A stretch of 64,000 nucleotides of DNA. Source: Bacillota bacterium. GTDB taxonomy: Bacteria > Bacillota > Sulfobacillia > JAJZYS01 > JAILZS01. Shown here piece by piece: positions 41,760 to 52,564 of the stretch; within the stretch, counting starts at the first letter, position 1, and every line of letters begins with the position of its first letter. The translations under genes and the position numbers were made by a program. Location of the stretch: NCBI GenBank assembly GCA_023512375.1, contig JAILZS010000005.1:1-64000 (forward strand), written 5' to 3'. The notes under the pieces were generated by a model, which was not told the origin of the DNA, ran no database searches, and saw only the letters and a program-made list of their open reading frames with translations.

Positions 41760-41795
41760 TGCGTCTTGCGGCGGCGACGCCGCCGGGAGGGCGAC

Positions 41796-42266
41796 GTGGG
41801 GCGCGAGCAACGGACCGTGGCGGAAAACCGTCGGGCGCGCTTCGACTACGCCATCGTGGAGACGATGGAAGCCGGCCTGTGCCTGACGGGCAGCGAGGTG
41901 AAGTCGCTCCGGCTGGGGCGGGTGAACCTGCGCGACGCCCACGCATTGGTGCGGGGGGGCGAGGTGTTCCTCCTGAACGCCCACATCGCGCCGTACGAGC
42001 AGGCGAACCGGATGAATCACGACCCCACGCGCTCCCGCAAGCTCTTGCTGCACCGGCGCGAGATCGACCATCTGGAGGGACGCGTGCGCCAGCAGGGGCT
42101 CACCCTGGTGCCGTTGCGGGTGTACTTTACGCCCCGGGGCCTGGCCAAGGTGGAGATCGCCCTCGCACGCGGCAAGCGCCGATACGACAAGCGCCAGAGC
42201 ATGGCGGAGCGCGACGCCCAGCGCCAGATTGCGCGCGCCCTGCGACAGCGCCAGCGCGGCGGCTAG
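41796..42266 (+). CDS. smpB: SsrA-binding protein SmpB
   Basis: A 156-residue OB-fold protein that binds tmRNA and brings it to stalled ribosomes for trans-translation. NRRARFDYAIVETMEAGLCLTGSEVKSLRLGRVNLRDAHA is diagnostic, and the C-terminal tail with RGKRRYDKRQSMAERDAQR is intact. The GTG start has GGGAGGGCGAC upstream. It lies directly in front of the tmRNA gene it serves. Confidence 0.97.
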   Translation: MGREQRTVAENRRARFDYAIVETMEAGLCLTGSEVKSLRLGRVNLRDAHALVRGGEVFLLNAHIAPYEQANRMNHDPTRSRKLLLHRREIDHLEGRVRQQGLTLVPLRVYFTPRGLAKVEIALARGKRRYDKRQSMAERDAQRQIARALRQRQRGG

Positions 42267-42293: not shown

Positions 42294-42646
42294 GGGGGCG
42301 AGTCAGCTTCGACATCGGGCGATCCGGACGAGGACGCGAGCCGGGGGGCCGGGCCCCGTCAACAACACGGCGTTCCTTACCTGCCAACCGCAACAGCGAA
42401 CTGGCACTCGCGGCGTAACGCCGCGACGTCCCGGGACCCGCAGGCCCGCGGCGACCTGAGGACGTAACGTAGCGGGATGCCGCACGCGGATGCCCGGCCG
42501 CGGGCGAAAGACGCATCCGGGCTGGGAAGGCGGACGACCCCGTCCTCGGGGGCGCCGCGGACGACAAGCGTACGAGGACTACGCTCGTAGGGGATTCGTC
42601 GGGATGCCCGGTGGACCGGGGGGGCAGTTCCCCCGCGCCTCCACCA
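42294..42646 (+). ncRNA. ssrA: transfer-messenger RNA (tmRNA)
   Basis: A 353-nt tmRNA directly after smpB. The 5' end GGGGGCG pairs with CGCCTCC near the 3' end to form the acceptor stem (one G-U pair), followed by ACCA with CCA encoded. The 5' part has the TTCGAC motif of the tRNA-like D region. The tag reading frame ends in GCACTCGCGGCGTAA and reads ANRNSELALAA, ending LAA as proteolysis tags do. The T arm just before the acceptor stem is odd: a run of seven Gs, then CAGTTCCCCC, instead of a normal TTCGANT loop. Confidence 0.93.
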
Positions 42647-43998: not shown

Positions 43999-44448
43999 TC
44001 ATCCATTCGGGCTGGGTGTGCCGACGGTTGAAACAGCCGACAGAGGCCGGCCAGGCATCGCCACCACGAGGTGGCGCCCTTTCGCAGCTGCCACAAGGCG
44101 CTCGTCATAGGCAACGAAGGCTTGAAGTTCTTGGCTCTCGAGAGCCAAGAGTTCCGCCGTGGCTAGATGAATGGCGTCCAAGCTGCGAAGGTTCGCATCG
44201 TCATATGCTGCTGCCATGGCCCGAATCCGCGCGTCGATTTCCATGCGATAGAGCCGGGCCATCACCCCAGGAACGTTGACGAGAGCAGTCGGATCGTACC
44301 GGCGGACGGCACGAGCTACCTCGACCTCCGCAAGGAAAGAGGAGACCAGGGGTGCTGAAGCCCTCTCCCGGAGCCATGCCAGGAGGCTGGGCGTTTCCCG
44401 CTCGAAACGAACGAGTTTGACAAGGGCCGACGAGTCGAGGTAGATCAT
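43999..44448 (-). CDS. vapC: PIN-domain ribonuclease toxin (VapC-like)
   Basis: A 149-residue PIN-domain protein, the toxin of a type II system that cleaves RNA. The metal-binding acids are visible: MIYLDSSALVKL (D5), the glutamate in FLAEVEVARAV, the aspartate in SLDAIHLATAE, and FVAYDERLVAAA. The ATG overlaps the stop of the antitoxin gene by 4 bp. The pair sits in a less GC-rich accessory patch between the ISL3 relic and the Ehr-like operon. Confidence 0.92.
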   Translation of the reverse strand: MIYLDSSALVKLVRFERETPSLLAWLRERASAPLVSSFLAEVEVARAVRRYDPTALVNVPGVMARLYRMEIDARIRAMAAAYDDANLRSLDAIHLATAELLALESQELQAFVAYDERLVAAAKGRHLVVAMPGRPLSAVSTVGTPSPNG

Positions 44449-44726
44449 GCACGCTCCTGTTCGCGGTCGCTCACCAGTAGGGCGGCAACGTCCCTTTCCG
44501 GGTGTGCGTTACGCGGAGGCGTGGGAAGGGGCCCTTCTGCCGTAGGGGCGATCGCCATACCCGTGGCGACCGCGCGATTCAGGTAGGATGAGCCGTGCGG
44601 AATGGGAATCAGGCGGGCGATGGGCCGCCCGTCGCGGGTGATGGTCACTGCCTGACCTTGGGCTACCCGGGCCAGGATGGCACTCGTATGCTGGTTGAGC
44701 TCACGCACAGGGATTTGTTGCTCCAT
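44445..44726 (-). CDS. antitoxin of the Phd/YefM family
   Basis: A 93-residue antitoxin. MEQQIPVRELNQHTSAILARVAQGQAVTITRDGRPIARLIPI is a textbook Phd/YefM N-terminus, which dimerises and binds DNA; the C-terminal tail should bind and block the PIN toxin. It is upstream of the toxin, with ATGA coupling. A perfect palindrome over the -10 region at 44785-44803 is the probable autoregulatory operator. Confidence 0.9.
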   Translation of the reverse strand: MEQQIPVRELNQHTSAILARVAQGQAVTITRDGRPIARLIPIPHGSSYLNRAVATGMAIAPTAEGPLPTPPRNAHPERDVAALLVSDREQERA

Positions 44727-44781
44727 CCGGGCCTCCAGCCAAGATGTCGGGGGTCGGTAGGTAGACGCCGTATCTGGCCTC

Positions 44782-44810
44782 ATTGTAGAACGATGTGTTC
44801 TACCCATCAA
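44782..44810 (-). promoter_or_regulatory. toxin-antitoxin promoter with palindromic operator
   Basis: On the minus strand a -35 box TTGATG (44805-44810) and a -10 box TACAAT (44782-44787) are spaced by 17 bp. The spacer is filled by a perfect inverted repeat, GTAGAAC-5-GTTCTAC, at 44785-44803, overlapping the -10 box. This fits repression by the antitoxin or the toxin-antitoxin complex. Confidence 0.75.
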
Positions 44811-45234
44811 GTTCTTCTCTTCACGGGCGGGTAGGGCGCGGGTCGGAAGGCAAGCGCTATACCTCGTTGTCATCGGGCCCACCCGTCCACCCAACGCCCG
44901 GCAAGTAGCGGGAGAGAGCGAAGCGCCGTTCACCCGGGATGACAGCGTTAGGGTGCCGCCGACAGGACGACCCTCACCGGTGTAGCCGTGGTCGTCGTCC
45001 GTCCCCATGGACTGTCGCACGCCGCCACCGGCCGGAGGCGGCTTCACGACAACCGAGACGAGGCCACCCGCCGCCTCGTCGCCGCGGTCGGCTGGCCCGC
45101 GCCCCATGCACGCCGGGCATCGCGTGTGCTCTTGGCGGCCACATCGGTCGGTCCTTGCGGTCACCTCCCCAGGTCAGCCCCTCGCGCTGAGACGCCCTCG
45201 CCACGCGTCGCTCTCTTGCCCTACCCCTGCGGCC
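44811..45234. other. 424-bp region without a recognised gene
   Basis: It lies between the toxin-antitoxin promoter and the promoter of the Ehr-like operon. Short open frames exist on both strands but none has a convincing start or family. It may be eroded accessory DNA. Confidence 0.4.
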
Positions 45235-45280: not shown

Positions 45281-45346
45281 ATGGAGGCCGCCCGGGCTAG
45301 GCCCGAACCGCCGCGCATGCGGCTGATGACTCCTAGGGTATCCTAG
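45281..45346 (+). CDS. possible leader peptide ORF of the Ehr-like operon
   Basis: A 21-codon frame (MEAARARPEPPRMRLMTPRVS) begins just after the predicted transcription start and ends with TAG inside the terminator stem. It is rich in arginine and proline codons. There is only a weak AGGG close to the ATG, so translation is doubtful. It is listed because the stop falls inside the attenuator hairpin. Confidence 0.2.
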   Translation: MEAARARPEPPRMRLMTPRVS

Positions 45347-45359
45347 GGGTTCGTTTTTT
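45328..45359 (+). terminator. leader terminator (attenuator) of the Ehr-like operon
   Basis: CCTAGG-GTAT-CCTAGG forms a stem that extends to about 10 bp with G-T pairs and is followed by TTCG and six Ts (45354-45359). This is the only hairpin with a full T tract seen in the window. It lies between the promoter at 45235 and the first gene at 45400, with no gene upstream on this strand, so it probably controls read-through into the operon. Confidence 0.6.
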
Positions 45360-45399: not shown

Positions 45400-46350
45400 A
45401 TGGTCCCGTCGGCGGCCGCGATCCTGGCTCAGGTGTGCGCCGTGCTCTTCGTGCTCGCATTGTCGCCGCTTCTGCGCGGCATCCTCGAGCGCGCCAAGGC
45501 GCGGCTCCTCTTCCGTCAGGGCCCGCCCGTGGTCCAACCGTACCGCGATCTGCGCAAGTGGTTCGCGAAGGAACGCCTGCGAAGCCCTTACGCCACGTGG
45601 CTTTCCGGGTTCTCCCCCTTCGCGTACTTCGTCGCGCCCCTGCTCGTGGCGTCCATGATCCCGGCGCTCACCGCCTTCCCGCTCCCGTTCGCGTTCACGG
45701 CGGACATGCTCGGCGCCGGTTTCGTCCTGGGCGGCGCGGGCCTTTTTCTGCTCCTCGCTGCGTTCGAGTCGGGAAGCGCGTTCAGCACCCTCGGCGTGAG
45801 CCGCGTGCGCCTCGTCGGGGTGTTCACTGAGCCGATCGCCTTCCTCGCCGTCTTCGCCGCCTCGGCGTCGGCCCACGCCACCATCCCCTTCGTGGTGAAC
45901 CAGGTGATGAGCCGCACCCCGTGGCTTTGGTCGCCCACCCACGTGCTCCTCATGCTGGCGTGGATCCTTCTCCTGTTGGCCGAGACGGGCCGCATCCCGG
46001 TGGACAACCCCGCCTCGGCGCAGGAATTGTCTCTCATCGACCCGGCGCGCACGTTCGAGGCTGCCGGCCCCGATCTGGCCCTCTACGAATGGGGTGGCTG
46101 GATGAAGTTCATGGTCCTCACCATTGTGCTGGCCAACGTCCTGTTCACGCCGTTCGGCCTGGCCACCTCCCTCACCGTGCCCGCGTTGGCGCTCTCTGCC
46201 GCGGTCGTGTTCGCCAAGCTCGTCCTGGTGGGCTTGGCCGTCGTCGCGGTGGAGGTCGCGTTCGCCAAGCTCCGCCTCCTGCGCATCCCCGAGTACTTGT
46301 TGGCGGCCGTGCTCATCGCCGCCGCCGCCGGCGCCGCCGCGTCCCTCTGA
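45400..46350 (+). CDS. Ehr/hydrogenase-4-like membrane subunit, NuoH/HyfC family
   Basis: A 316-residue protein with about eight hydrophobic helices. ILERAKARLLFRQGPPVVQPYRDLRKWFAKE is typical of HycD/HyfC, and LAETGRIPVDNPASAQELSLIDP carries the conserved acids of the NuoH/HyfC loop that connects the hydrophilic arm with the membrane arm. It would form the quinone-site or energy-coupling interface. The ATG has AGGAGGGGAACGG upstream. It is the first gene of a six-gene operon. Confidence 0.93.
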   Translation: MVPSAAAILAQVCAVLFVLALSPLLRGILERAKARLLFRQGPPVVQPYRDLRKWFAKERLRSPYATWLSGFSPFAYFVAPLLVASMIPALTAFPLPFAFTADMLGAGFVLGGAGLFLLLAAFESGSAFSTLGVSRVRLVGVFTEPIAFLAVFAASASAHATIPFVVNQVMSRTPWLWSPTHVLLMLAWILLLLAETGRIPVDNPASAQELSLIDPARTFEAAGPDLALYEWGGWMKFMVLTIVLANVLFTPFGLATSLTVPALALSAAVVFAKLVLVGLAVVAVEVAFAKLRLLRIPEYLLAAVLIAAAAGAAASL

Positions 46351-46366
46351 TTCGAAGGAGGTCGCC

Positions 46367-47020
46367 ATGCCCCTACCCGCGCTGACCGGACTGTTCGCCT
46401 TCGCCGGCTTCGCCCTGCTCGCCCTGTCGAGCGGCTCCATCCTCACCCGCGACCCGCGCCAGACCGTGGCCCTGTACGCCCTGGCGTCCGTACCCCAGGC
46501 GGGAATCGCCGCCCTCCTGGCCGTCCTCTTCGGCCACGTCGAGCTCTACGCGCTGGCGGCCGCCATCCTCGTGCTCAAGGGGCTGATCGCGCCGCGGCTC
46601 CTCGTCGTTCCTTGGCCCAAGATGCATCATCCCCACTACGGCCTCACGGGCCACCTCGGGACGCCGGCCTCCCTGGCCGTGGTCGTGGGCATCCTCATGT
46701 TCGCCTACCGCGTCTCGGTCGTCCTCGCCCCCCCGGCCCTGGAGACGGCGATGGCCGCCACCATGGCCTCCGGCCTTGTCGGGCTCCTCGCCCCCGCGGT
46801 CCGGCACGAGCTCGCCGCCCAGGCGGCGGGGCTCCTGCACGGGGAGGCCGGCATCACCGCCACCGCCCTCTTGTTGGTGGGCCACCTCCCGGTGGCGGCG
46901 GACGTGATCTCGATCGCCGAACTCCTCGTCCTCGCCCTCCTCCTCGGCGTGCTCCTGGCGCGCGTGATCCGCATCCACGGTCGGGCGGACGCCAGCCTCC
47001 TCACGGTGCTGCGGGGATGA
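46367..47020 (+). CDS. Ehr/hydrogenase-4-like membrane subunit, HyfE (NuoK-like) family
   Basis: A 217-residue protein with six or seven hydrophobic helices, resembling HyfE of hydrogenase 4, whose C-terminal part is related to NuoK. Conserved-type features are TRDPRQTVALYALASVPQA near the N-terminus and the C-terminal MSASLLTVL-like end (DASLLTVLRG). GAAGGAGG precedes the ATG. Its stop overlaps the next start in ATGA. Confidence 0.8.
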   Translation: MPLPALTGLFAFAGFALLALSSGSILTRDPRQTVALYALASVPQAGIAALLAVLFGHVELYALAAAILVLKGLIAPRLLVVPWPKMHHPHYGLTGHLGTPASLAVVVGILMFAYRVSVVLAPPALETAMAATMASGLVGLLAPAVRHELAAQAAGLLHGEAGITATALLLVGHLPVAADVISIAELLVLALLLGVLLARVIRIHGRADASLLTVLRG

Positions 47021-48486
47021 GCGCGCTCATGGCGGTGTACGCGCCGGCCGCCTGGCCGGCGCTGGGTGCGCTCGCCATCGCCGCCCTGCCGGCGCGATGG
47101 TCGCGCCTTCTGGCCCGGGCGGTGGCGGCGGGCCTCGGGGTACTGGCCGTGTGGTGCGGCGCTTTGGCCTTGGGCGGGCGGGCGCCGTGGGACGCGCTCT
47201 CCCTGTGGCTGCTCCTCCCGGGCCTGGGGTTGGGCGCTTTGGGACTGTGGGCGTCGGACGCGCTATTGGCCCGGGAGGCGGGGCACGCCGACGTCTCGCC
47301 CGAGCGCAGGCTCGTGCTCGAGCGGCGCTACCTCGCCCTGTACAGCGCGTTTGCGGCGACGATCGCCCTGGTGGCCTCGGCCGACGGCATCCTGCTCATG
47401 TGGGTGGCGGTGGAGGGGACGACCCTGGCCTCGGTGCTCCTGGTCGCCCATCCGCGCCTGCCGACCTCGGTCGAGGCGGCGTGGAAGTACCTCGTGGCGA
47501 CCAGCGTGGGCGGCCTGTTGGCCCTTCTCGGCACGGTGTTCATCGCCTCGGCCTGCCACGTGTCGCTGGGCGCCCCGCCGGGCGTGCTGCCCGCACCGCT
47601 GGCGGCCCCCGCCGTCCCCGCCGCTCTCGTGGGGTTCGCCTTCGCCGCCGTCGGCTTCGGCACCAAGGTAGGACTCGCCCCCATGCACGGCTGGCTCCCG
47701 GACGCCCACAGCGAGGCGCCGGCGCCGGTGTCGGCCCTGCTGAGCGGCATCGAACTGGCCACGGTGCTCTACGCCCTCACCCGTCTGGAGCGCATCGTCG
47801 CCATCGCCACCGGATCCGCCTGGCCGGGGCGGTGGCTCGTCATCTTCGGCCTTCTGTCCCTTGCGCTCGCGGCGCTGTTCATCGGCGTGCAGCGGGACCT
47901 CAAGCGGGCCTACGCCTATTCCAGCGTCGAGCACATGGGACTCGTCGCGCTCGGGGCCGGGGTGGGCGGCATGGCGGTGGTCGGTGCCCTCCTCCACGTC
48001 TGGACGCACGCGTTTACGAAGAGCGGCCTCTTCCTCGCGGCAGGGAACGTGCGCCACCGCTTCGGCGCCGCCAAGCTGCCCGAGGCCGACCATCTCCTGG
48101 GCGCCATGCCCCGTACCGGCTGGGCGGTGGCCCTCGGCACATGGGCGATCGCCGGCCTGCCACCCTTCGGGCCGTTCTTCAGCGAGTGGCTCATCCTGCG
48201 CGGCGCGGTCCGGCAGGGGGACGCGGCGGCGGCCGCGGCCGCCGCCGCCCTCCTGGCCGCCGTGGCGGTGGGACTCGGCCGCCAGGTGCCGCGCATCCTT
48301 CTCGGCGGTCGCCGACCGCGGCAGCCCGTCGCCGGCCGGGGGGCGGCATGGGAGACGGCGGGCGAGCTGTGGCCCATGGCGGCGCTCACGCTCTTCGGCC
48401 TGGCAGCGGGCGTCGCCGTCCCCGCCGCCTTTGGGCACGTCCTGAGGCACGCCGCCTCTCTCGCGCAGGGGGGGATGGGACGATGA
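47017..48486 (+). CDS. Ehr/hydrogenase-4-like antiporter-type subunit, HyfF (NuoL/M/N) family
   Basis: A 489-residue polytopic protein of the proton-pumping NuoL/M/N (Mrp antiporter-like) family. Key residues are visible: the glutamate in MWVAVEGTTLASVL, the lysine in GFGTKVGLAPMHGWLPDAHSEAPAPVSALLSG, and later lysine/histidine positions in QRDLKRAYAYSSVEHMGL and HVWTHAFTKSGLFLAAG. It should translocate protons or sodium ions. It overlaps both neighbours by 4 bp. Confidence 0.92.
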   Translation: MSALMAVYAPAAWPALGALAIAALPARWSRLLARAVAAGLGVLAVWCGALALGGRAPWDALSLWLLLPGLGLGALGLWASDALLAREAGHADVSPERRLVLERRYLALYSAFAATIALVASADGILLMWVAVEGTTLASVLLVAHPRLPTSVEAAWKYLVATSVGGLLALLGTVFIASACHVSLGAPPGVLPAPLAAPAVPAALVGFAFAAVGFGTKVGLAPMHGWLPDAHSEAPAPVSALLSGIELATVLYALTRLERIVAIATGSAWPGRWLVIFGLLSLALAALFIGVQRDLKRAYAYSSVEHMGLVALGAGVGGMAVVGALLHVWTHAFTKSGLFLAAGNVRHRFGAAKLPEADHLLGAMPRTGWAVALGTWAIAGLPPFGPFFSEWLILRGAVRQGDAAAAAAAAALLAAVAVGLGRQVPRILLGGRRPRQPVAGRGAAWETAGELWPMAALTLFGLAAGVAVPAAFGHVLRHAASLAQGGMGR

Positions 48487-49910
48487 GGGTCGAGGAGTCG
48501 GCGGTCGTCGGGGTGCGGCCGGAGGCGTTCGGCGCCGAGGTGCACCGCCGCCTACGCCACGCCCGCCCGAGCGAAGACGCGCCGGTGGGCACGAACCTCA
48601 TCGCCCTGTGGGAGGTGCGCGAGGGCGGCGAGGTGCTGGTGGAGGCCGTCCTGGAGGAGGGCGACGCGGTGGTGCGCCTCCAAGCGCCCTGGCGGCCGGA
48701 GCTCGTGTGGCCGAGTGAGGCGGGGGCGCGCGAAACGGCCCTGGAGGAGGCGCGCCTCATGGCGGTGGCGCAGGGGGAGGGGCGGTACGGGACCGGGCCG
48801 GCGCACGCCGTGGCCGCCCGGGGGGCGTTCACCTTCCCGATCGGTCCGGTGCGGGGCGACGTCATGGAGTCGGCGGCCCTCACCCTCACGGGCATGGGCG
48901 ACGAGGTCCTCGGCCTGCGCGTCGACCTGGGCTGGAAGGTGCGGCGGGTGCAGCAGGCGGCGGTGGGCCTTCCCGTCGCCGAGGCGGTGCGAGTGGTGGA
49001 ACACACCACGGCCACGTCGGCGGTGGCGCACGCCCTCGCCTTCAGTCAGGCGGTGGAGGCGGCCCGGGGGCGCCCCGTGACAGGGCGTGCGGCCGTCCTG
49101 CGCAGCATCCTGGCCGAGATCGAGCGCGCGCACAGCCACCTCCTCGACCTGGCCTCCCTGGCCGGGGCCACCGGCCTGCCCGCCGCACAGCAGGAGCTCA
49201 TGGCCCTGCGCGAGTCGGTCCTGCGCACGGCGTACGCCCTCGTCGGCCACCGCTACCTGCGCGGGGCGGTGGCTCCCGGAGGCCTTGCCGTCGACCCCGG
49301 GGACCGAGCCTGGGTAGAGGCGGCCATGGCCGTGGTGCGCCTCGGCCCCGCTTTGGACCGGATCGTGGCCGATCTCGACGCCACGCCCTCGTTCCTCGAC
49401 CGCCTGCACGCGGCGGGCATCGTCAAGAGCCACGAGGCGGTCGAGATGGGCGCGCTGGGCCCGGTGGGCCGGGCGAGCGGCAGCGGACCCGACTGCCGGC
49501 GCCACCGACCGTACGCCGGGTACGTCGGCCACCCCCCTTCGCCCCTGCCGTACGACCACGCGGGCGACGCCTGGGCCCGTTGGCGGGTGAAGACGGCGGA
49601 GGTGCGAGCCAGCCTGTCCTGGCTCGAGCAAGCGGCGGTCTCGCTTCCCGACCGGTGCCGGGAGGAGGCGGACCCGATCCCTGCCGGTGGGGACGGTTGG
49701 GGCCTGGGCCGGGCCGAAGGTCCCCGCGGCGAGGTGGTGTACGCCGTGCGGCTCGACCCGGAGGGCAGGACGGCGGGCGTCTGGGCCCGCACCCCGTCCC
49801 TGCGCAATTGGGCCCTGCTCCCCGTCGCGGTCGCCCGGCGCAACGTCCTGCAGGACGTGCCGATCATCGAGGCGAGCTTCGCCCTGAGCGCGGCCGGCAG
49901 CGACATGTGA
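48483..49910 (+). CDS. hydrogenase-like large subunit lacking all Ni-Fe cysteines (NuoC-NuoD / HyfG-like)
   Basis: A 475-residue homologue of the group 4 hydrogenase large subunit. A NuoC-like N-terminal part of about 110 residues is fused to the NuoD/HycE-like part, which begins at FPIGPVRGDVMES. Where active hydrogenases have RxCGxC...H, this protein has VRVVEHTTATSAVAHALAFSQAVE (residues 169-192), without cysteine; at the C-terminus, where DPCxxC should be, it ends VPIIEASFALSAAGSDM. No nickel site can form, so it is not a hydrogenase. This matches the energy-converting-hydrogenase-related (Ehr) complexes, whose substrate is unknown. The gene is intact and in frame with its neighbours. Confidence 0.92.
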   Translation: MRVEESAVVGVRPEAFGAEVHRRLRHARPSEDAPVGTNLIALWEVREGGEVLVEAVLEEGDAVVRLQAPWRPELVWPSEAGARETALEEARLMAVAQGEGRYGTGPAHAVAARGAFTFPIGPVRGDVMESAALTLTGMGDEVLGLRVDLGWKVRRVQQAAVGLPVAEAVRVVEHTTATSAVAHALAFSQAVEAARGRPVTGRAAVLRSILAEIERAHSHLLDLASLAGATGLPAAQQELMALRESVLRTAYALVGHRYLRGAVAPGGLAVDPGDRAWVEAAMAVVRLGPALDRIVADLDATPSFLDRLHAAGIVKSHEAVEMGALGPVGRASGSGPDCRRHRPYAGYVGHPPSPLPYDHAGDAWARWRVKTAEVRASLSWLEQAAVSLPDRCREEADPIPAGGDGWGLGRAEGPRGEVVYAVRLDPEGRTAGVWARTPSLRNWALLPVAVARRNVLQDVPIIEASFALSAAGSDM

Positions 49911-50003
49911 GGAAAGGAGAAGGGGAGGGTCGCCGCCGGGAGGGGCCGGCGACGCCGGCCCGACGCCCATTCCGGCAACATTCGGGATGGAGGAGGTACA
50001 GGT

Positions 50004-50564
50004 GTGATCTACCCGGGGTTCCTCCGCGCCCTGCGCCGTGGTCCGGCGACCACCCGCTACCCGTTCGGCGACGATCCCGGCGCAGGTCCGGCGCCTACGC
50101 CCGCTCCCGTCTCCGCCACGGGCACCGTTCCGGCCTCGCCGCTTCGCCTGTCGCTCGCCATCCGCCACGTCGACGCCGGGTCCTGCAACGGGTGCGAGAG
50201 CGAGATCGCCATGCTGGCCAGCTGCGTCTACGACCTCACGCGACTGGGGTTCGTGTTCACGCCCTCGCCGCGCCACGCGGACCTCCTCCTCGTCACCGGC
50301 GTGGTGACCGAGGCCATGGTGCCGGTGCTCCGCCAGACCTACGAGGCGATGCCCGCCCCCAAGCGGGTGGTGGCGGTCGGGGGGTGCGCGCTGGGCGACT
50401 CGCTGTTCGCCCTCCAGCCCGGCGTGCGGGGCACCCTCGAGGGGGTGGTGCCGGTGGACGTGCGGGTGCCGGGTTGTCCCCCCACCCCGCGCGCCATCCT
50501 CGATGGCATCCTGGAGGCGGTCGGGCGCACGCCGGCCTGGGCAAAGGAGGCGGCGGCGCGATGA
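50004..50564 (+). CDS. hydrogenase-like small subunit, NuoB/HyfI family, [4Fe-4S] protein
   Basis: A 186-residue homologue of NuoB/HyfI. The cysteines that bind the proximal N2-type cluster are intact: C61 and C64 in GSCNGCESEI, C128 in VGGCALG, and C158 in VPGCPPTP. The N-terminal YPF motif (residues 19-21) is also typical. It should pass electrons to or from the large subunit. The GTG start has GGAGGAGGTACAGGT upstream; 93 bp separate it from the large subunit gene. Confidence 0.94.
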   Translation: MIYPGFLRALRRGPATTRYPFGDDPGAGPAPTPAPVSATGTVPASPLRLSLAIRHVDAGSCNGCESEIAMLASCVYDLTRLGFVFTPSPRHADLLLVTGVVTEAMVPVLRQTYEAMPAPKRVVAVGGCALGDSLFALQPGVRGTLEGVVPVDVRVPGCPPTPRAILDGILEAVGRTPAWAKEAAAR

Positions 50565-52564
50565 CGTGGGCGCTCCCGGCCTTGGCCGCGGTCGCCTGGT
50601 TGGTCGGCGCCGCCGCCCCCCCCGCGCGCCGGGCGGCGTTGTGCGCGGGCGGCCTGGCTGTGGCGGCGTGGGGGGCGGCGGGGCTCATGGGCGTGGGCGG
50701 GTGGACGCTCGCCCTGCCTTCGCCGCTCCCCTCCCTGTCCTTCACCCCCGGCGGGGTCGGCGGCCTGTGGCTCCTTCTCCTAGGAGCCTTGGGTTTCGCC
50801 CTCGGCTTGTTGCTCGAAGACGGCCGCGGGGGTAGGATGGCGCGCCCGGCCACCGCTTCGCTCGCCCACCTGACGCTTCTCATGGGGGCGGGCGTGCTGG
50901 CCGCGACGACGCCGTTCGCGCTCCTCACCGCCTGGGAGGCGATGTCCGGCCTGACCTACCTCCTGTTCCTGGCCGCCCGGCCCGGCCGGCGCGTATACGC
51001 CGCCTCCTTCCTGCTCCTATGGGTCTCCGAGGCGGGGGCGGCGGCGCTCTACGCGGTGGCCCTCTTCTCGCAGGGCGGGGGCGCAGGGGCGTTGGGCGCC
51101 CTGACACCGGGGGTGCGGCTTACCCTCGCCCTCCTGGCGGTAGCGGCGTTCGGCACCAAGGCGGCGCTCGTCCCCTTCCAGCTCTGGCTTCCGGTGGCGG
51201 AACCGGAGGCCCCCGGGGCGGTGGCGGGGTTCCTCTCCGGAGCGCTCACCGCGGTGGCCTTTGCGGCCCTCCTGCGCGTCATCGCGTGGCTTGACGCACC
51301 CGCGCTCCCCCTCGGCGCGGCGGTGGGCGGGCTGGGGCTGGCCGGCCTGAGCATCGGCGCGCTCGGGGCGCTGTTCGACGGCGACACAAAGCGCATCCTG
51401 GCCTTCGGCACGGTGGAGGCGATGGGCGCCGCCTTCCTCGCCCTCGGTCTGGGCCTGTTCCTGCGCGCCCTCCACGCCCCGGCGCAGGCGGCGACCGCGT
51501 TCGTGGGGGCGGCCACGCTCGTTTTCGCGCACGCCGGCGGCAAGCTGTCTCTGTTCGCCGCCGCGGGCGAGGTGGAGGCGGCCGGGGGCGGCCGGCGCCT
51601 CGACGCCCTGGGCGGGCTCATGGCTCGAATGCCGTGGACGGGGGCGACCGCCCTGGTTGGTGCCCTGGGCCTGGCGGGTATGCCTCCGCTGGGGACGTTC
51701 GTCGGCGAGTGGCTCCTCCTGGAGTCCCTGTTCATGCCCCTGCCCGAGGCCGCCGGCGTGCACGTCCTGCTCGCCATGCTGGGCGCGGCCGTGGCCGTCC
51801 TGGCGGCGCTGTCGCTCACCGCCTACCTCCGCTGGTACGGTACGGCCTTCCTCGGTCCCGGACGGAGCGGGCGCGCCGTGGGCGTAACCGAACGGCCGGG
51901 GTGGCCGCGGGTGGGGCTCGCGGTCGCCCTCCTCCCCCTGGCCGCGGCGGGGATCGCCACTCCCTGGCTGGTGCCCCTGTGGCAGGCGGCGTACGCTCCC
52001 GGTCCGGCCGTCGTCCTGCCCCTGTTCCGCGCCCCGCAGCTCAGCCCCACCCTGGTCGGGGTGGGCGCGGCCGTGGGACGGGGTCTACCGGGAGCGACCG
52101 GGGTGGTGCTCACCCCCGGGGGCGGGTTCTCCGTCCTCTCGCCCTGGGACCTCACCTGGATCGCCCTCGGCTTGGGCGCCGTCGTCTACCTTCTCGTGCG
52201 CCTAGGGGCTACCGGCATGGCGCGCCCGCCCCGCCGCACCGCACCCTGGGCGGGCGGCCGCGCCACCTATGCCCCGGCCATGACCTACACGGCGGAGAGC
52301 CTGAGCCATCCCCTGCGCCTTTCCCTCGCCGCCTGGGCGGGGGTGAGGGCCGAGCGGCCGAGCGTCCTGGGCGGCCGGGCGCGGCGCTACCGGGTGCGCT
52401 ACCGCGACCGCCTGTGGACGTACGGCTATCTGTGGCCCGCCCGGGCGGTGACGGCGCTTGCCGACGCCTTCCGCAACTGGCAGAGGGGATCGGTGGCCCA
52501 GTACGTGGCGTCCATCCTCCTCGCCCTGGCGGTGGCGGCGATCGTGAGCTCCTTCGCCCGCTGA
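50561..52564 (+). CDS. Ehr/hydrogenase-4-like antiporter-type subunit, HyfB family
   Basis: A 667-residue polytopic protein with about 14-16 hydrophobic helices, the second ion-pump-type subunit of the operon. Family features are LLTAWEAMSGLTYLLF, FGTKAALVPFQLWLPVAEPEAPGAVAGFLSG and HAGGKLSLFAAAG, which carry the conserved glutamate and lysines. The long C-terminus ends in another membrane helix. Its ATG overlaps the small-subunit stop by 4 bp. No ferredoxin-type HyfA/HyfH subunit follows. Confidence 0.9.
   Translation: MTWALPALAAVAWLVGAAAPPARRAALCAGGLAVAAWGAAGLMGVGGWTLALPSPLPSLSFTPGGVGGLWLLLLGALGFALGLLLEDGRGGRMARPATASLAHLTLLMGAGVLAATTPFALLTAWEAMSGLTYLLFLAARPGRRVYAASFLLLWVSEAGAAALYAVALFSQGGGAGALGALTPGVRLTLALLAVAAFGTKAALVPFQLWLPVAEPEAPGAVAGFLSGALTAVAFAALLRVIAWLDAPALPLGAAVGGLGLAGLSIGALGALFDGDTKRILAFGTVEAMGAAFLALGLGLFLRALHAPAQAATAFVGAATLVFAHAGGKLSLFAAAGEVEAAGGGRRLDALGGLMARMPWTGATALVGALGLAGMPPLGTFVGEWLLLESLFMPLPEAAGVHVLLAMLGAAVAVLAALSLTAYLRWYGTAFLGPGRSGRAVGVTERPGWPRVGLAVALLPLAAAGIATPWLVPLWQAAYAPGPAVVLPLFRAPQLSPTLVGVGAAVGRGLPGATGVVLTPGGGFSVLSPWDLTWIALGLGAVVYLLVRLGATGMARPPRRTAPWAGGRATYAPAMTYTAESLSHPLRLSLAAWAGVRAERPSVLGGRARRYRVRYRDRLWTYGYLWPARAVTALADAFRNWQRGSVAQYVASILLALAVAAIVSSFAR

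Follow-up and report, generated by a model that had tools for sequence, protein, structure and literature searches.

What does a six-gene membrane complex of the hydrogenase type do once its nickel-iron (Ni-Fe) site is gone, and under which conditions is it made? This question is raised by the operon hyfC-hyfE-hyfF-hyfG-hyfI-hyfB at positions 45400-52564 of the window, the 64,000-nucleotide stretch of Bacillota contig JAILZS010000005.1 that was analysed here. An earlier note had read the operon as a hydrogenase-related (Ehr-type) complex of a lineage marked by its gene order, with a quinone as a possible substrate. The Ehr-type, non-hydrogenase and gene-order parts of that reading stood, the quinone did not fare well, and a fluoride riboswitch (crcB motif) had been overlooked. 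This riboswitch lies just upstream of hyfC, outside the stretch that the note covered, and is part of the operon. Its presence before this operon and nearly all of its relatives is the strongest lead to function, and we consider it probable that the operon encodes a fluoride-inducible, ion-translocating stress complex of the Ehr type.

Fluoride was reportedly identified as the ligand of this riboswitch in a 2012 paper by Baker et al. In the window, the terminator hairpin (45328-45351) overlaps the 3' end of the aptamer and lies upstream of the hyfC start at 45400. The CTCC that forms the aptamer pseudoknot sits within the 5' arm of the terminator, an arrangement that predicts a fluoride ON switch. 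In this riboswitch class fluoride relieves the terminator (PMC2864571, PMC8004769). A promoter candidate precedes the aptamer (Table 1); it is a consensus match only, with one found against 0.2 expected.

The association is not peculiar to the window. With the Rfam model, 18 of the 19 C-E-F-G-I-B operons in a set of 61 genomes were matched immediately upstream (E<=0.001), and 11 of these matches exceeded the gathering score; among the 18 are two divergent operons of G001:C171, each with a match of its own. A second model, R1, was built from 22 sequences that were partly leaders of C-E-F-G-I-B operons, and is mostly a sequence profile, since RNAalifold recovered no more than three base pairs from the alignment of riboswitches; with it, 60 of the 63 C-E-F-G-I-B operons with upstream room had a same-strand switch, the median distance to the HyfC domain being 72 bp, whereas none of 24 operons of the B-C-E-F-G-I, NiFe or complex I types had one (Fisher p = 1.7e-18).

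The operon itself consists of six intact genes on the forward strand. They are translationally coupled, with ATGA overlaps at the E/F, F/G and I/B junctions, and the composition is of the coding type, with a third-position GC content (GC3) of 0.92-0.94 in each gene. Pfam and NCBIfam searches assigned the six proteins to the families previously proposed for them (HyfC-, HyfE-, HyfF-, HyfG- and HyfI-like, then HyfB-like). The claim that two pumps are intact was likewise borne out: the pump lysines, glutamates and histidines of HyfF, HyfB and HyfC are present in the window, and most key pump residues are nearly invariant, being kept in 66-68 of 68 relatives.

The same complex turned up in the genomes of many Bacillota (among them Sulfobacillus, Alicyclobacillus, Desulfosporosinus and Ammonifex) and of some Actinomycetota. 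A single window protein used as the query found no relatives; an alignment-based scan of contigs did. The order C-E-F-G-I-B recurs in almost all relatives, and the large subunits from these operons that lack Ni-Fe cysteines form one clade, with bootstrap/SH-aLRT support of 99/99 in a tree made without the Ni-Fe columns and 97 in another (the row NuoD_own, a translation in the wrong frame, was left out of the trees). Gene order and loss of the Ni-Fe cysteines thus mark a single lineage, as had been suggested for the order. The clade lies on the side of the hydrogenases, away from NuoD, and close to it is a group that has retained CxxC...CxxC and whose gene order is B-C-E-F-G-I, a circular permutation of C-E-F-G-I-B. 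Proteobacterial B-C-E-F-G-I relatives are also without Ni-Fe cysteines, which would make the loss of the site either repeated or ancestral, and the tree is compatible with both. Ratios of nonsynonymous to synonymous substitution (dN/dS) are 0.04-0.23 for all six genes among close relatives. The window sequence (~43-51% identity to its nearest relatives) sits on a longer branch (0.90 vs. a median of 0.33), and it breaks none of 43 near-invariant columns. The lineage is old and under purifying selection.

Could the complex be a formate hydrogenlyase or another hydrogenase, either functional or degraded? HycE is the closest fold and a sister clade retains CxxC...CxxC, but HyfG has no Ni-Fe cysteines, and neither a NiFe hydrogenase (PF00374) nor HypD was found in the host genome (G000, 93% complete). 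A recently damaged hydrogenase is excluded by the single cysteine-less clade, the low dN/dS, the absence of broken frames and the intact conserved columns. We regard this explanation as extremely improbable. The locus is not nested among ordinary hydrogenases as a damaged copy with high dN/dS, an outcome that the earlier note had named as one that would refute its reading, and the Ni-Fe-free large subunit with intact pumps agrees with its assignment to the Ehr type. That label is given here by these two features, the originally named Geobacter and Nitrospira Ehr lying outside the comparison set.

The large subunit was said to lack every Ni-Fe cysteine, and the four positions in HyfG are indeed T176, S179, S469 and G472. 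Across the lineage they are mostly Thr/Ser/Ser/Gly; 69 of 70 members have no Ni-Fe cysteine, and the remaining one has one of the four. The AlphaFold model of HyfG (pLDDT 90.3) has its best match in the PDB to HycE of E. coli formate hydrogenlyase (7z0s_E, TM 0.84). At the places of Nqo4 H38 and Y87 the window has M128 and A177, neither of them a quinone ligand. In the alignment, equivalents of H38, Y87 and D139 are absent from all 70 members, where the H38 site is mostly Ala or Ser, the Y87 site mostly Gly and the D139 site Ser or Ala. Since these residues are absent and E129, the equivalent of MbhL E21, is kept, the window site is neither a standard quinone site nor the site of the sulfane reductase MBS.

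These residues bear on the explanation that the complex is a redox-driven respiratory enzyme. Electron transfer from an N2-type cluster to a quinone or another acceptor would then drive the pumps, and fluoride control would add a spare energy supply when fluoride-sensitive enzymes fail. The invariance of E129 fits such an enzyme; the missing Nqo4 equivalents do not, and the quinone considered previously is further weakened by the N2-type cluster, which is lost or short of a ligand within the lineage.

In the small subunit, alignment to MbhJ and HycG located the cluster cysteines C61, C64, C128 and C158 at MBH-like spacing; all four are present, as the earlier note had stated. Its observation that no HyfA/HyfH-type ferredoxin subunit is encoded also holds for the six operon genes, yet the N-terminus of HyfI resembles that of HyfH/NuoI. 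The first ~20 residues score 16.3 bits on a model of the HyfH N-terminus, compared with 9.0 for the best of 1100 shuffles, and the best control matches of the model are genuine HyfH/NuoI/MbhN homologues. HyfI therefore looks like a fusion with a HyfH stripped of its clusters, a view resting mainly on the window score and the position, most other members of the window clade scoring weakly.

Relatives differ in which redox centres they retain. A ferredoxin protein of the HyfH type, standing alone or joined to HyfI, occurs in those from Alicyclobacillus, Desulfosporosinus and Ammonifex; the window clade no longer has the ferredoxin part. The sister clade of the window (L070, L072, L082, L084) has CxxP, i.e. 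three of the four N2 ligands, and two further loci (L105, L113) have SxxC, with one N2 ligand lost. In clade b of family f4 and in Mycobacterium branderi all N2 ligands are gone and a fused HyfH-type site is kept. Redox centres are lost stepwise along the lineage, with pump residues remaining almost invariant. Clade b gave the first impression of a redox-dead complex; this was lowered, as its N-terminus holds the fused HyfH-type cluster site. No lineage member without any cluster site was found, each having either N2 with three to four cysteines or the fused site. The HyfI proteins of L045, L046, L047, L048 and L049 have no N2 cysteines, a fused CPTGA...CxxCxxC site and dN/dS of 0.04-0.10, and provide a natural experiment in how complex I-type coupling proceeds where N2 is missing.

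Such a series would be expected if the redox function were lost or vestigial and the complex had become a fluoride-gated or fluoride-coupled ion transporter, its old chamber, lined with Thr and Ser, sensing or carrying an anion and its pump modules acting as an exchanger or pump. The Ni-Fe site is lost throughout, the HyfH clusters in the window clade and N2 ligands in some branches; the pumps stay nearly invariant and dN/dS low (0.04-0.2) despite the loss of sites; the former Ni-Fe positions are mostly Thr/Ser/Ser/Gly; and the clade b operons, although without N2, are also preceded by riboswitch matches. However, some recognisable cluster site persists in every member found, the window retains all four N2 cysteines, and a redox-free complex of the same fold has no known precedent. 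We therefore consider a transporter without redox function unlikely.

The host genome offers further evidence on a respiratory role. It encodes a complete separate complex I with NuoF and NuoG, which would suit a respiratory enzyme, and a formate dehydrogenase on another contig, beside a fused NuoE-NuoF protein. Co-occurrence led us to reject formate dehydrogenase and CO dehydrogenase as obligate partners, both being absent from G001, which has two such operons, and also NiFe hydrogenase, of which the host has none. No conserved neighbouring dehydrogenase was found at the operons of relatives. A haem-copper oxidase is present in 17 of 17 operon-bearing relatives vs. 22 of 44 other genomes (p = 0.0002 by genome, 0.03 by family), a co-occurrence that is real but confounded by phylogeny. 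For the respiratory enzyme, the oxidase, the four cluster cysteines of the window and the persistence of some cluster site in all members found have to be set against the lack of an obligate or adjacent dehydrogenase and the erosion of cluster ligands within the lineage; we think it possible, at somewhat less than an even chance. A respiratory quinone reductase working independently of fluoride is unlikely because of the riboswitch statistics.

How, then, might a fluoride-inducible stress complex work? At acid pH, hydrogen fluoride (HF) passes through membranes and sets fluoride and protons free in the cell. A rise in cytoplasmic fluoride would be met by binding to the leader RNA, the terminator would fail to form, and the operon would be transcribed. 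It is very likely that fluoride induces the operon, and likely that the complex takes part in the response to fluoride or HF stress. The membrane arm (HyfB, HyfF, HyfC and HyfE), with its proton path intact, would move protons or another ion across the membrane, outward proton pumping being plausible. Pumping could offset the acid and fluoride load brought in by HF, or else damage to, or a fluoride block of, energy conversion. The soluble arm HyfG/HyfI, with no Ni-Fe site, no canonical quinone ligands and one [4Fe-4S] cluster site, would probably be reduced directly by a soluble donor at the place vacated by HyfH, and would act on some substrate in the old active-site chamber. The chances of a redox drive appear about even. 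The retention of some cluster site in every member makes a single-cluster redox reaction, fed by a soluble donor, somewhat more likely than a non-redox mode; the trend of cluster loss argues against redox drive.

The hosts of the lineage include the known acidophiles Sulfobacillus and Alicyclobacillus, which agrees with a stress complex directed at fluoride or HF, as does the absence of CrcB from the host genome. Several points weigh against this reading. The sequences from which R1 was built were partly those it was used to count (the Rfam counts are independent), and at the threshold used R1 found no switch at L114, L116 and L118. Of the 17 relatives with the operon, 7 also have CrcB, for which the complex is therefore no mere substitute; the host genome has one CLC-family protein. 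The Ammonifex and Desulfosporosinus members belong to anaerobic genera. Finally, we know of no NuoL/M-type protein that moves fluoride. A bolder form of the proposal holds that a complex I-type machine was turned into an ion pump for fluoride/HF resistance, shedding the Ni-Fe site, then the ferredoxin clusters and then N2 with its pumps kept, and that its drive is no longer conventional electron transfer, or that fluoride or HF-derived protons are themselves what it transports; this we rate as rather unlikely. With the link to fluoride, the function of the complex becomes open to testing, both in acidophiles that are in culture and in standard laboratory strains sensitive to fluoride, and the loss of redox centres beside near-invariant pumps provides a natural series for what the pumps of complex I need in order to run.

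Known fluoride genes adjoin some operons, which also speaks for the fluoride reading. In L078 and L079, two CrcB genes and a DUF190 gene cluster with the operon. On Mycobacterium branderi plasmid NZ_AP022607 (L131) the C-E-F-G-I-B operon stands beside three fluoride riboswitches, eno (enolase), usp (universal stress protein) and a DUF190 gene. A fluoride island on Alicyclobacillus sp. ALC3 plasmid NZ_CP066785 (L135, 16045-41253) combines CrcB, two DUF190 genes and six fluoride riboswitches; it also has an isolated hyfG, preceded by a riboswitch of its own and accompanied by no further Hyf gene. MutS-like genes adjoin the operons in L038, L041 and L045. No gene beyond the six was generally conserved in the neighbourhoods of relatives.

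Some further observations were made at related loci and around the operon. Paralogous but divergent C-E-F-G-I-B operons lie side by side in pairs, head to head in L033:2266-17031 and in tandem in L105:6556-19472, and each operon has riboswitch matches. A second fluoride riboswitch in the host genome (G000:C42:12211-12299, L138, 37.2 bits) is located near genes that read as GTPase-like and MFS-like, and possibly marks a further fluoride operon. The B-C-E-F-G-I complexes L051, L052, L053, L055 and L056 (in G010, G008, G001, G011 and G005) keep CxxC...CxxC and end right after it, and no HypD match was found in their genomes; given no HypD and no cleavable tail, their four cysteines may hold something other than Ni-Fe. 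A cyclic di-AMP riboswitch (L057:2795-2918, forward strand, 80.9 bits) just before hyfB of a B-C-E-F-G-I operon suggests that this sister lineage may also be under riboswitch control. In the window, a PIN-domain toxin and Phd/YefM-type antitoxin pair (43999-45164, reverse strand) lies directly upstream of the operon on the opposite strand, and a tmRNA gene (42294-42646, forward strand) has a 166-residue smpB-like open reading frame (41766-42266) just upstream.

Table 1. Features of the operon and its leader in the window (all on the forward strand).
Feature	Start	End	Strand	Description
Sigma-70-like promoter candidate	45235	45263	+	TTGACG, 17 nt, TACATT; TG before second hexamer
Fluoride riboswitch aptamer (crcB motif, Rfam RF01734)	45268	45342	+	41.7 bits vs. 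gathering score 34; full-length match 1-64
Intrinsic terminator, hairpin and T run	45328	45361	+	10-pair stem, then CGTTTTTTGC; -14.6 kcal/mol
hyfC	45400	46350	+	NuoH/HyfC-like membrane anchor; PF00146, 1.1e-22
hyfE	46367	47020	+	HyfE-like membrane subunit; NF008556, 1.8e-7, full length
hyfF	47017	48486	+	Antiporter-like pump subunit; PF00361, 4.1e-49; pump residues nearly invariant
hyfG	48483	49910	+	475 aa; large subunit, NuoC-like plus NuoD/HycE-like (49-kDa-like); PF00346, 3.3e-27
E129 codon	48867	48869	+	Equivalent of MbhL E21; kept in 70/70 members
Former N-terminal Ni-Fe CxxC, T176-S179	49008	49019	+	A177 sits at the place of Nqo4 Y87
Former C-terminal Ni-Fe CxxC, S469-G472	49887	49898	+	Ser and Gly at the two former cysteine positions
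hyfI	50004	50564	+	GTG start, 186 aa; small subunit (20-kDa-like); PF01058, 5.7e-26
hyfI N-terminus	50004	50066	+	Apparent HyfH/NuoI N-terminal remnant without ferredoxin clusters
hyfB	50561	52564	+	667 aa; antiporter-like pump with C-terminal extension; NF005086, 1.4e-73; PF00361, 9.6e-27

Complexes of this kind have been described before. In its passages on Sulfobacillus Ehr, Justice et al. 2014 (PMC4378227) reported clusters of 'function unknown' that resemble the window operon in having six syntenic group-4-like genes, with homology to nuoH, nuoL, HyfE and HyfB, and in the absence of both Ni-Fe motifs. Genomes AMDSBA1, 3 and 4 of that study are among the loci analysed here (L089, L125 and L091). 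The window differs in coming from another family, and the riboswitch goes unmentioned in those passages. The Ehr of other groups were likewise reported as of unknown function (PMC6349859, PMC10284858, PMC12342949), the reports spanning 2014, 2019, 2023 and 2025. In the open-licence literature no paper joining Ehr complexes to the fluoride riboswitch was found. The parts are known; what appears to be new is the recognition of this Ehr lineage as fluoride-controlled, together with the finding that its gene order marks one clade and that its clusters decay.

With respiratory complex I (NuoB/D/H/L/M/N) the window complex shares the common core of peripheral and membrane arms, but it has no NADH module and no quinone ligands, and a CxxC replaces the adjacent cysteines of the small subunit. 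MBS of Pyrococcus furiosus is also a complex I relative without a Ni-Fe site and without H38/Y87; MbhL E21 is lost in it, and its catalysis relies on a proximal cluster with three cysteine ligands (PMC7684303), a ligand number that is also predicted for the CxxP sister clade of the window. Unlike MBS, the window complex has four ligands at MBH-like spacing, retains the counterpart of MbhL E21 and is without MbsN clusters. E. coli formate hydrogenlyase and hydrogenase 4 (7z0s; hyf operon) have homologous subunits B, C, E, F, G and I, whereas the window complex lacks the Ni-Fe site, the HyfA/HyfD/HyfH clusters and the maturation genes, and differs in gene order and control; neither HyfA/HyfH ferredoxin subunits nor a formate dehydrogenase are among its six operon genes.

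Weinberg et al. 2010 (PMC2864571) named 'formate hydrogen lyase' among the crcB-motif genes, and it is listed also in PMC8004769. Those genes are like the window operon in that an RF01734 RNA with an overlapping terminator precedes Hyf-like genes. PMC2864571 names formate hydrogen lyase only; here the genes are Ni-Fe-free Ehr complexes of one gene order. 'Formate hydrogen lyase' had stood as an odd, unexplained entry among the fluoride-riboswitch genes, and the near one-to-one link found here joins two puzzles in one large lineage: the fluoride-controlled 'formate hydrogen lyase' genes are the Ni-Fe-free Ehr complexes.

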